Assembly (NCBI GenBank): GCA_009885185.1
Contig: VFLF01000148.1
Coordinates: 1 to 5,197 of the forward strand
Source: Nitrosomonadales bacterium
GTDB lineage: Bacteria > Pseudomonadota > Gammaproteobacteria > Burkholderiales > SG8-41
DNA: 5,197 nucleotides
Direction: 5' to 3'
Shown here piece by piece: positions 2,885 to 5,197 of this stretch (position 1 is the first letter of the stretch; each line of letters starts with the position of its first letter). A model generated the notes under the pieces. That model was not told the origin of the DNA, ran no database searches, and saw only the letters and a program-made list of their open reading frames with translations. Both the position numbers and the translations under genes were made by a program.

Positions 2885-2908
2885 TCCTTGCTGGACGATT
2901 TAACGTTT

Positions 2909-2916
2909 AGAGGAGG
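2909..2916 (+). promoter_or_regulatory. Strong Shine-Dalgarno for the second hydrolase
   Basis: AGAGGAGG, continuing into GT, nearly matches the full anti-Shine-Dalgarno complement and sits 10 bases before ATG 2927. It is the strongest ribosome binding site in the window and fixes this start over the in-frame TTG/CTG codons just upstream. Confidence 0.8.
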
Positions 2917-2926
2917 TCGTCGGACA

Positions 2927-3997
2927 ATGGCTAATGCGGATTTGGAACGCAACCGCCCGCGCTTTCCCCGCATCATCGCGGCGGGCGTGGACTATAACGA
3001 TCTCATGAGCATCGTTCAACGCTGCGAGGCGCATAACGAGGACTGGGGGAAGGTGTGGGAAGCGTTCGGCGCAACGCACGAAGCGATTGGCGACGATGCA
3101 CTACGCGAAGGCGGAACCATCACTGCTGGCGAGGCGTTCGCGCGCTCCGCCGTCTATTTCCATGTGGCGCAGGCTACCAATCACCACGATCTCCCCGAGA
3201 AGGAACGCTTGCAGCGCCTCCAGCATGCGGTCTATCGCAAGGCGATGCCGCACCTGCGGCCGCCGGTGGAGGCGGTCGATATCCCCTACAAGGATTCGAG
3301 CTTTCCCGGCTATCTGCGCTTGCCGCAAGGCGCGATAAGTCCCGTGCCCTGCGTGTTAATGCTCGCCGGTCTGGATTCCACCAAGGAGGAGTTGGCCTGC
3401 TACGAAAAAGCCTACCTCGACCGTGGCATGGCCACGTTCGTGTTCGATGGCCCCGGACAAAGTTTGACGCGGATACGGTTTCCGCTGGTACCGAACATCG
3501 AATGGCCGGTGAGCGCCATACTCGACCACCTGTCGCGCCGCGCGGATATCGACGCGTCGCGTTTCGCCATCTGGGGCCGCAGCGTCGGCGGCTACATGGC
3601 GCCGCGCGCGGTCGCATTCGAGCCGCGCCTGAAAGCCTGTGTATCGATCGGCGGGTTCTACGACTGGCCGTGGGATCGCTTCCGGCAGGCCTCACGTGAA
3701 GAGTTCGCCATGGTCACGCACGCAAAAAATCTGGAAGAAGCAGAAAAGATCGCCAGGACATTCACGCTGAAAGGGATCATGGACAGGGTGAAGATCCCGC
3801 TGCTCATCGTGCATAGTCAAGGCGACGCGGTGTGCCGCTACGAAGAGGCGGAGAAAATGGCGCGCGAGGCCGGTGGATCGGTAAAGTTGGCGCTGTATCC
3901 CGAAGGCAACCATGTGTGCGACAACATTCCCTACAAGGTTCGCCCAATGATGGCCGACTGGCTGGCGCGGCAGTTGGGGTTGACGGCAGGCTGGTAG
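2927..3997 (+). CDS. Alpha/beta hydrolase of the FrsA / 2,6-dihydroxypseudooxynicotine hydrolase type
   Basis: A 356-residue cytoplasmic protein in two parts. Residues 1-115 form a mostly helical N-terminal cap (DYNDLMSIVQRCEAH, then EAFARSAVYFHVAQ, a hallmark of this subfamily). From about 116 the hydrolase core follows: VDIPYKDSSFPGYLRLP, the oxyanion region LAGLDSTKEE (146-155), FDGPGQS (173-179), the nucleophile elbow GRSVGG with Ser219, Asp300 in HSQGDAV and His329 in EGNHV. From memory, the nicotine-pathway hydrolase has its triad at nearly the same positions (Ser217, Asp300, His329) plus a Glu near 248; here that stretch reads DWPWD (246-250), so a nearby Asp may stand in. Relatives cleave C-C bonds of beta-diketone-like substrates or esters. 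It is preceded by a strong Shine-Dalgarno and lies 42 bases after the Bug gene, in an apparent operon. The fold and triad are secure; the substrate is not. Confidence 0.92.
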   Translation: MANADLERNRPRFPRIIAAGVDYNDLMSIVQRCEAHNEDWGKVWEAFGATHEAIGDDALREGGTITAGEAFARSAVYFHVAQATNHHDLPEKERLQRLQHAVYRKAMPHLRPPVEAVDIPYKDSSFPGYLRLPQGAISPVPCVLMLAGLDSTKEELACYEKAYLDRGMATFVFDGPGQSLTRIRFPLVPNIEWPVSAILDHLSRRADIDASRFAIWGRSVGGYMAPRAVAFEPRLKACVSIGGFYDWPWDRFRQASREEFAMVTHAKNLEEAEKIARTFTLKGIMDRVKIPLLIVHSQGDAVCRYEEAEKMAREAGGSVKLALYPEGNHVCDNIPYKVRPMMADWLARQLGLTAGW

Positions 3998-4112
3998 TGC
4001 GATGATGTGTGGTGCAGGGGCAGCAACAAAATCGCACCCTCGCCCGCACCTTATTCATGCGTTAGTATCCGCCATTGACTTCCCGAACGTAATGACCGCA
4101 TAGAGACCTTGT
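3998..4112 (+). other. Intergenic gap with a long-loop inverted repeat
   Basis: 115 bases separate the second hydrolase from the selenoprotein gene. GTGCGAT (3997-4003) and ATCGCAC (4031-4037) are exact complements with a 27-base loop. No T-run follows, so a standard intrinsic terminator is not supported. A TTGACT at 4075-4080 has only a poor -10 candidate (around 4099-4104) that would start transcription almost at the ATG. A separate transcript for the downstream genes is possible but not shown. Confidence 0.3.
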
Positions 4113-4643
4113 ATGACCGAAGAACCCGGCTTCATCGACCCCACCGCCGGCACCGGCCGCAAGCGCGTGCCGCTGGCGCTGCGCCCCGCCGATCTCGCAG
4201 GCAAAGTGGTGGGCCTGCTCGACAACACCAAGGAACAGGGCAGCCTGACTCTTGAAACGCTGGGCGCTGCGCTGCGAGAAAAATACGGCGTCGCGCGCGT
4301 TGTCACGCGGCGCAAGGAGCGCTATTCCAAACCCGCCATCGATGCGCTGATCAACGAGATGGCAAAGGAGGTTGATGTCGCGATAGCCGCGCTGGGCGGG
4401 TGAGGCTCTTGCACGTTGCGCAGTGTGCACGACACCATCGAATTCGAAAAACGCGGTACCCCGGCGACGGTCATCATCACGCAGGCGTTTCGCAATGCGG
4501 CTCTGTTCCAATTCAAAAGCAAAGGCATGGAAGGTCATGCTTATATCGAAATGCCACACCCGGTGAGTAGTCTGTCGCCGGAAGAAATGCGCACGTTGAC
4601 GCTGCAATTCGTTGATCCCATTGCGCGCCAGCTCAAAGAATAA
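4113..4643 (+). CDS. UGSC-family selenoprotein, in-frame TGA (4401-4403) read as selenocysteine
   Basis: Read through the TGA, this is a 176-residue protein with selenocysteine at residue 97. The first part has family features: FIDPTAGTG near the start, a basic LALRP segment, GKVVGLLDNTKEQG (30-43), VVTRRKERYSKPAIDALI and EVDVAIAALGG up to residue 96. The next codons give U-G-S-C (97-100), then TLRSVHDTIEFEKRGTPATV, QAFRN and a C-terminal helix ending ARQLKE. This order (DPT, LLDN-K, RRK, xxDVAIxAxG[U/C]GSC, SVHD-x-x-E-x-E-x-RG) matches my recollection of the UGSC family, where the U position is Sec or Cys. The U-x-x-C arrangement suggests redox or thiol-type chemistry, but the reaction is unknown to me. 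The same frame stays open for 80 codons after the TGA with conserved-looking sequence, so a true stop is unlikely. The Shine-Dalgarno is weak (AGAG at 4102-4105). Downstream RNA can form a SECIS-like hairpin. A recently decayed Cys gene (TGC/TGT to TGA) is the main alternative. Dependence on SelA, SelB, SelC and SelD is inferred; none of these genes is in the window. Confidence 0.87.
4404..4436 (+). promoter_or_regulatory. Candidate bacterial SECIS hairpin after the Sec codon
   Basis: Immediately 3' of the TGA the mRNA can fold: 4410-4417 pairs with 4422-4429 as 8 consecutive pairs (two of them G-U) around a GCGC tetraloop (4418-4421). Below a U/C mismatch, 4407-4408 pairs with 4431-4432, and across a small internal loop 4404-4405 pairs with 4435-4436. 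Bacterial SECIS elements lie inside the coding region just after UGA and usually carry a G at the start of the apical loop, as here. The loop begins after 14 bases, slightly closer than the roughly 16 or more usually seen. An alternative 4-pair hairpin, 4423-4426 with 4432-4435, places a GCACG loop 23 bases after the UGA. Folding was judged by eye. Confidence 0.55.
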
Positions 4644-4668: not shown

Positions 4669-5197
4669 ATGACCACCCACAACAAAGTCGCCGTCATCAC
4701 CGGCGGCGGCACCGGCATCGGCAAGGCTTGCGCGCTGGCATTCATCAAGGACGGCTACCGCGTCGTTATCACGGGGCGGCGCCCGGAGCCGCTGGATGAA
4801 ACCATCAAGGAAGCCGGCGTCGACAGCTCGCGCATGATCGGCGTGCCCACCGACGTGGGTGATCCTGCGGCCGTGAAGAATCTGTTTGCGAAAACCATGG
4901 CCGCCTTCGGTCGCGTTGACGTGCTGTTCAACAACGCAGGCAGCAACGCGCCGGGCGTGTTGTTTGAAGACCTGTCGTGGGAGAAATGGAAATCCGTGGT
5001 GGACGCCAACCTCAACGGCATGTTCCTGTGTTCGCAGGAAGCCTACAAAATCATGAAGGATCAGACGCCGCGCGGCGGACGCATTATCAACAACGGCTCG
5101 ATCTCCGCGCACGTGCCGCGGCCCGATTCCGCGCCCTACACCGCCACCAAACACGGCGTATCGGGCTTGACTCGCACTATCGCGCTCGATGGCCGCA
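4669..5197 (+). CDS. Short-chain dehydrogenase/reductase (partial, C-terminus beyond right edge)
   Basis: The visible 176 residues are a classical SDR, normally about 250 residues, so roughly 70 percent is present. The Rossmann cofactor motif TGGGTGIG is at 11-18, TDV at 61-63, NNAG at 88-91, Asn114 in DANLNG, the catalytic Ser144 in NNGSIS, and Tyr157-x-x-x-Lys161 in YTATK, so the Asn-Ser-Tyr-Lys tetrad is complete. The second beta strand ends ITGRR (34-38); basic residues here usually indicate preference for NADP(H) over NAD(H). Such enzymes interconvert alcohols and ketones, often hydroxyacyl or cyclic alcohol substrates. The gene starts 25 bases after the selenoprotein with a good AGGAG site and is very likely in the same operon. 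Generic SDR sequence does not reveal the substrate. Confidence 0.95.
   Translation, partial: MTTHNKVAVITGGGTGIGKACALAFIKDGYRVVITGRRPEPLDETIKEAGVDSSRMIGVPTDVGDPAAVKNLFAKTMAAFGRVDVLFNNAGSNAPGVLFEDLSWEKWKSVVDANLNGMFLCSQEAYKIMKDQTPRGGRIINNGSISAHVPRPDSAPYTATKHGVSGLTRTIALDGR

Follow-up and report, generated by a model that had tools for sequence, protein, structure and literature searches.

A predicted UGSC-family selenoprotein gene near the remnant of its partner gene, and a possible relationship of the family to selenoprotein B of glycine reductase

The window, that is, the whole stretch of DNA analysed here, comprises 5,197 nucleotides of a contig from a Nitrosomonadales bacterium (VFLF01000148.1). 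On its forward strand, a UGSC-family selenoprotein gene occupies positions 4113–4643, as indicated by family models and related loci, and would encode 176 amino acids with selenocysteine (Sec) at residue 97. Four other features lie upstream of it on the same strand. They are an alpha/beta hydrolase gene (632–1474; PF00561), the remnant of the gene Unk1 (1467–1793), a gene for a Bug/TctC-type substrate-binding protein (1793–2884; PF03401) and a gene for an FrsA-like alpha/beta hydrolase (2888–3997), which was recognized by family scan and, judged by eye, more likely starts at the ATG at 2927. The nearest NCBIfam models of the first hydrolase were of the PcaD type and remained below their cut-offs; the gene is found at the same place in two related loci, L001 and L008. 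Downstream, also on the forward strand, the family scan revealed an SDR family dehydrogenase (4669–5196) that runs off the window. A second Bug/TctC-like protein, named by eye, is encoded on the reverse strand at 3–578; it likewise runs off the window and has counterparts in L001 and L008. The hydrolases, Bug-type binding proteins and SDR reported in the preliminary description as the neighbourhood of the Sec-containing copy were thus present. An Rfam search of the window gave two matches only, both far below the gathering score.

Translation reproduced the reading frame described previously. It opens with ATG at 4113, meets TGA at 4401–4403 (codon 97) and then stays open to TAA at 4641–4643, which gives 176 residues with U97 when read through. 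In the read-through protein, the TGA is the first position of the motif, in the context DVAIAALGG-U-GSC-TLRSVHDTIEFEKRG. The window protein has U97-G98-S99-C100, and U/C-G-S-C was invariant across 37 aligned members of the family. Exceptions were seen among database proteins: P0047 has R-G-S-C and P0043 has C-W-S-C. Mechanical ORF calling broke the gene into a 96-aa ORF and a 75-aa ORF with a TTG start (4416–4643), as had been predicted. The read-through protein scored 160.9 bits with PF24696 (cut-off 25; residues 8–175) and 134.4 bits with NF041046 (cut-off 125; residues 30–174). The earlier assignment to the UGSC family therefore holds by the curated cut-offs of both models. Taken separately, the two halves scored 68.3 and 62.0 bits with the former model and 44.4 and 61.8 bits with the latter. 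Since the UGSC models recognize each half by itself and give the read-through protein more bits than either, the split frame is not a product of chance. In addition, the upstream hydrolase gene ends in a TGA (1472–1474), so TGA is not reassigned throughout.

One scan of genome contigs yielded 44 related loci, which were 35–90% identical. The aligned codon was TGA in all 44, with similarity on both sides of it. Forty-two of the loci read GG-U-GSC; L043 and L044 are paralogues, in which U-G-S-C follows another motif. Two loci (L040 and L041) were cut by contig ends. Six loci titled Bordetella parapertussis (L002, L004, L007, L009, L033 and L037) and one titled Chitinophaga pinensis (L028) carry UGSC loci most like those of uncultured betaproteobacteria, and these labels look wrong. 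Plasmids gave 17 further matches, eight of which were fetched; the codon was TGA in two of them (L045 and L048) and encoded Cys in six.

We also surveyed selection on both sides of the TGA. Between the window and its ten nearest relatives, dN/dS was 0.056–0.193 after the TGA; before it, the values were 0.045–0.226 (nine relatives; L010 was not computable). Among the best 120 of 1023 database matches, 117 were 96–107 aa long. These look like gene-calling artefacts, because the DNA of close relatives runs past the TGA, and the suggestion that homologues might naturally end at residue 96 is not borne out. It is very improbable that the TGA is a true stop followed by a dead remnant, or that the locus consists of two separate genes. 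The listed database matches are mostly predicted homologues of about 96 aa, as this reading would have it, but selection past the TGA is purifying, the family models span both halves, a hairpin lies downstream of the UGA, and related loci combine the TGA with conserved sequence after it. That a Cys codon was misread or misassembled as TGA is less probable still: the family has Cys forms (the six plasmid loci and P0043), but an error for TGC or TGT, which had been named as a possible refutation, is very unlikely with TGA in all 44 related loci. On these comparisons, the gene at 4113–4643 almost certainly encodes a selenoprotein, and by the same sequence evidence the UGA at 4401–4403 is decoded as Sec. 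The family has already been named (PF24696 and NF041046), and the window gene is one more Sec copy. Standard gene calling truncates UGSC selenoproteins at the TGA.

For the Sec machinery, we searched the genomes of relatives, covering 16 of the 30 from which the loci came. Both selA and selB were over cut-off in 15 of the 16, with G014 as the miss in each case; among 14 control genomes, selB was over cut-off in two. For selD, 15 of the 16 genomes were again over cut-off (the miss was G006), and each of the 15 genes had one in-frame TGA. The tRNA-Sec (selC) scored 74.5–77.1 bits in 15 genomes, and G014 gave 47.3 bits, at the gathering score. A score of 47 bits alone says little, because five of the 14 controls pass the gathering score.

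A SECIS-like hairpin was found at 4415–4433 on the forward strand, with the twelfth base after the UGA as its first. It has a 7-bp stem (arms 4415–4421 and 4427–4433) and a 5-nt loop (4422–4426). In the window, a C-A mismatch (4419 with 4429) is the only one and leaves six of the seven pairs. In 20 chosen sequences, 99.3% of the cells were paired vs 94.3% in shuffles; slid versions of the structure reached at most 65.7%, a comparison that favours the hairpin since it was drawn from sequences within this set. Both-sided changes occurred at three pairs, and the covariation score of the same 20 sequences was matched by none of 500 shuffles. Among 86 distinct U-G-S-C stretches with UGA, 94.5% were paired vs at most 86.4% in 500 shuffles. 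Seven pairs were present in 65 of these stretches, six in 15, five in three, four in two and one in a single stretch, the GrdB-like L115. The CTLC subfamily had all seven pairs in 36 of 36 distinct stretches; the window, which reads CTLR, has six. Single-sequence folding energies were not better than those of shuffles (z of 0.73 for the window and −0.09 to −0.88 for four relatives), so the case for the hairpin rests on covariation. From its position, its covariation and the Sec genes in relatives, we infer that the hairpin is a SECIS element. The 21 of 86 stretches with fewer than seven pairs, together with the single-sequence folds, speak against the hairpin being general.

The Unk1 remnant consists of the N-terminal part of Unk1 joined in frame to its last few codons, with the junction at about 1766–1778. 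In near relatives, Unk1 has about 335–350 aa, and full-length copies end in AVHGTYAIS or AVHGVYDV, whereas in the window GVQGTMHGV runs directly into YAIE and the stop. The middle of the window's Unk1 is therefore missing. The two parts meet within a short repeated sequence (CATGG.GT), one copy of which is found in the middle of Unk1 and another at its end. Full-length or cut by a contig end, Unk1 was present in 41 of the 44 loci. It usually precedes UGSC immediately, and 19 of the loci have two copies. It was not in the examined stretch of L004, L007 and L009, where UGSC is intact. In the window, the Bug-type gene and the FrsA-like hydrolase gene stand between the remnant and UGSC. All eight fetched plasmid loci had Unk1, in some cases fused to UGSC. 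The Sec UGSC-Unk1 fusion of L045 (from position 4001; IncP plasmid of Acidovorax sp. T1) is annotated merely as a 96-aa hypothetical protein, and by eye its frame continues past Unk1 into transposase-like sequence. Four stand-alone Unk1 proteins gave nothing above cut-off in Pfam or NCBIfam. Similarly, a Foldseek search of the PDB with a model of one Unk1 protein (pLDDT 85) gave no match with E below 0.048 and none that was convincing.

The window's own copy of UGSC shows signs of wear. Codon 103 (CGC, 4419–4421, forward strand) encodes Arg, whereas every one of the 41 close loci that extend over the site has Cys. The single base 4419 underlies both the Arg in place of the third Cys of UxxCxxC and the unpaired hairpin position. 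Arg at U+6 was also found in the database protein P0047, which has Arg at the Sec position too. The third Cys is no rule for the whole family: Cys occupies U+6 in 48 of the 86 distinct stretches, and other subfamilies have W, G, A or S there. At two residues, C103R and N153S, the window departs from a column that is otherwise invariant across the 40 further full-length rows. Among the window and ten near relatives, private residues at otherwise invariant columns numbered six in the window, 0–5 in L001–L009 and eight in the more distant L010.

We then have several counts of replacement and silent changes. The window's singletons were eight replacement and one silent in UGSC vs none and seven in the adjacent SDR (Fisher test, P = 0.0014). 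When the same UGSC singletons were compared with the 37 replacement and 27 silent singletons of nine relatives, P was 0.14. The singletons of the Unk1 remnant were seven replacement and none silent; nine other copies had 0–3 replacements, and L010 had ten replacement and eight silent. In a three-way comparison that included L001 and L008, replacements were not in excess in the window's UGSC (14:28 replacement to silent, compared with 10:20 and 19:28); in the upstream hydrolase, the ratio was 5:42 in the window and 21:49 and 20:28 in the others. These tests are mixed, and relaxed selection in the window's UGSC is suggested by them at most.

The window copy is probably impaired or in early decay, as its Unk1 is deleted internally, Arg replaces the third motif Cys and one hairpin pair is lost. 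These differences are there in the DNA; the loss of function is what we infer from them, and we hold impairment with moderate confidence. Against decay, the frame is open without an extra stop and pairwise dN/dS is low. Both points also fit a fully working selenoprotein that copes with R103 and one hairpin mismatch, with Unk1 provided from elsewhere in the genome by another copy. This would further agree with the three-way count, in which replacements are not in overall excess, with the other subfamilies that do without the third Cys, with 15 other distinct stretches that have six of the seven hairpin pairs, and with the three loci that keep an intact UGSC without Unk1 nearby. However, all seven pairs are kept in every one of the 36 CTLC-subfamily stretches, and the singletons of UGSC differ from those of the adjacent SDR. 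A working copy is thus a serious possibility, though one to which we give rather less credit than to impairment. Errors in sequencing or assembling the contig are an unlikely source of the Unk1 remnant and R103. Reads could have been joined wrongly at the junction, where a short sequence is repeated, and the same junction was absent from the 29 other short matches examined, of 111. But the window-specific replacements are uneven (none in the SDR, eight in UGSC and seven in the Unk1 remnant), and random errors would not spare the SDR.

With an impaired copy in the window as the preferred reading, we turn to what the intact family may do. The first hint of a link with GrdB, the selenoprotein B of glycine reductase, was the fusion L051, which showed a weak TIGR01917 match over the motif (E 0.18). 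In the profile comparison by hhalign, the C-terminal half of UGSC matched the C-terminal UxxCxxC domain of GrdB with a probability of 96.0% (E 4.9e-9), U falling on U, and the score was 60.9 vs a best of 22.4 in 100 column shuffles. The sets compared were 45 UGSC sequences and the C-terminal part of 11 GrdB-like proteins (nine distinct stretches; two identical pairs), which were read through the UGA and came from relatives' and other genomes. Earlier runs with four GrdB sequences gave 83 and 87%, and the value of 96% was reached after sequences were added on both sides. The GrdB-like L115 itself reads U-G-S-C. The window protein (P0001) had no PF07355 or TIGR01917 match in the family scans. 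A PrdB-like set compared with UGSC gave 1.8–4.2%, which is not significant, vs 99.7% for GrdB compared with PrdB-like proteins.

The gene directly upstream of GrdB is, by its position, presumably GrdE. Unk1 was considered as a relative of GrdE, and this idea was dropped because the profile probabilities of Unk1 were 0.1% with the GrdE-like profile, 0.1% with GrdB and 0.7% with UGSC. Five loci (L073, L074, L075, L093 and L094) encode GrdB-like Sec proteins with the GrdE candidate directly upstream, and in L073 and L074 a Bug-like gene, recognized by eye, follows the GrdB-like gene. There were also 23 short PrdB-like stretches with U-P-x-C/T (L069–L072, L076, L077, L079–L091 and L095–L098), which plain ORF calling cuts at the UGA.

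The predicted model of UGSC (pLDDT 92) alternates strands and helices and places U97 between strand 89–95 and helix 98–113; the domain is predicted to be Rossmann-like. A thioredoxin-like fold was rejected on the same model, given this alternation and the absence of thioredoxin among the best 50 of 1678 Foldseek matches. Those best 50 were weak and unrelated chains of the Rossmann or P-loop type, with a query TM of at most 0.54. A search of PDB sequences with the UGSC profile gave nothing below E 0.15.

Thioredoxin genes were found beside UGSC-Unk1 in two of the eight fetched plasmid loci (L047 and L049), where trxB, or trxB plus trxA, adjoins the pair; two of the eight loci are unannotated. 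L049 has a natural Cys form of UGSC, with trxAB adjacent. Phosphosulfolactate synthase genes lie near UGSC-Unk1 in L046 (1485–1952) and L049 (660–1448), a possible hint at sulfonate-type substrates.

The GrdB profile match, the UxxCxxC motif, the adjacent Unk1 and the thioredoxin genes beside two loci lead us to favour, narrowly, a GrdB-like, thioredoxin-linked two-part reductase made of UGSC and Unk1. In the proposed mechanism, the hairpin just downstream would direct the decoding of the UGA at 4401–4403 as Sec. UGSC would be the selenol component; its U97-x-x-C100, continued by -x-x-C103 in relatives, is predicted to stand where a helix begins. The pair might work like selenoprotein B of glycine reductase, by reductive cleavage of a substrate perhaps imported by the neighbouring Bug-type systems, and would be recharged by thioredoxin. 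Against the reductase reading are the missing N-terminal part of GrdB, the dissimilarity of Unk1 to the GrdE candidate, the match to PrdB-like proteins that is not significant despite the strong one between these and GrdB, and the presence of thioredoxin genes in only two of the eight plasmid loci. The PDB sequence search, which revealed no solved relative, and the weak, unrelated Foldseek matches also count against it. Taken as a whole, we consider the combination of Sec decoding, the hairpin, a GrdB-like UGSC-Unk1 reductase, many Sec copies and an impaired window copy to be a likely best explanation of the data.

UGSC genes were numerous in the related genomes. At E ≤ 0.001, there were 6–31 matches per genome and 515 in total in the 30 genomes behind the loci (G001–G030), all of which have the family by choice because they were found through UGSC. 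One TGA was present in all 150 listed of the 515 matches. Five genomes, four of them chosen for high counts, were listed completely; among their 135 matches, 132 were above cut-off and 130 of these had one TGA. Of the remaining two, one is an open frame of 551 aa and the other a partial match lying past the motif. Among the matches of these five genomes, G012:C301:4654-5157 covers the whole domain without TGA and is possibly a Cys form. In an even sample of 274 genomes from the class of G001, the family was found in three, G001 included. Most records of the genomes with these UGSC counts are MAGs by title and may be mixtures.

In the part of the 2016 survey available to us, 33 UGSC selenoproteins were counted in 26 organisms (PMC5029168). 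The record numbers of selenoprotein genes per genome are given as 57 and 63 in the accessible text of PMC13188914, and up to 31 matches of UGSC alone amount to about half of either. Beyond the 2016 table, we found no report of UGSC copies per genome on such a scale in the accessible portions of the UGSC and selenoprotein literature; the source of the 63-selenoprotein MAG may give them. Our tentative proposal, somewhat more doubtful than the reductase itself, is that UGSC and Unk1 make up a second class of reductases, related to GrdB, that depend on a selenol and are driven by thioredoxin. In uncultured betaproteobacteria and some other bacteria, this class would have diversified into 6–31 paralogues per genome, almost all of them with Sec. 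Neighbouring genes for hydrolases, dehydrogenases and Bug-type binding proteins would link each paralogue to a substrate of its own. If this is true, the selenoproteomes of the hosts are among the largest known, a main share of them falls to one family, and loci like that of the window show how single copies get lost.

Beyond the preliminary description and the named family, the analysis adds a SECIS-like hairpin, a partner gene that is internally deleted in the window, C103R with the broken hairpin pair, the link to GrdB, and many Sec paralogues as the rule in related genomes. The window gene itself adds one Sec copy to a named family, and these consequences outweigh it: an uncharacterized selenoprotein family can now be connected, in a way open to testing, with glycine reductase, and it acquires a conserved partner gene.

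Compared with the UGSC family as modelled (PF24696 and NF041046), which the GOS paper and later reviews call the UGSC-containing protein, the window protein agrees in scoring above both cut-offs and in its U-G-S-C motif, and differs in having R103 for Cys and a deleted partner gene. As far as the available text of the GOS paper (PMC2398784) goes, the Sec form of UGSC was already known and was most frequent in non-marine samples; a thioredoxin-like fold was thought likely there, whereas our predicted model is Rossmann-like. A UGSC/Unknown_1 fusion mentioned in the same text resembles the UGSC-Unk1 fusions in L045 (Sec) and L051 (Cys), and Unknown_1 would correspond to our Unk1. UGSC and GrdB are listed apart in the portions available of PMC2398784, PMC13188914, PMC9312934, PMC5029168 and PMC12013277. 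The PrdB-like stand-alone selenoproteins (U-P-x-C/T) are likewise short Sec proteins, belong to the PF07355 family and occur in the genomes behind the loci, but their direct profile match to UGSC is not significant. GrdB (PF07355 and TIGR01917) differs from UGSC in its additional N-terminal part and in the gene beside it, to which Unk1 is unlike (hhalign 0.1%). The motif of GrdB, UxxCxxC according to the accessible part of PMC13188914, is shared with the UGSC family; the window's own is UxxCxxR. Both also share a U that follows a strand, an E-x-x-GIP-like segment and C-terminal helices, a second gene as partner and, near two of the UGSC loci, thioredoxin genes.
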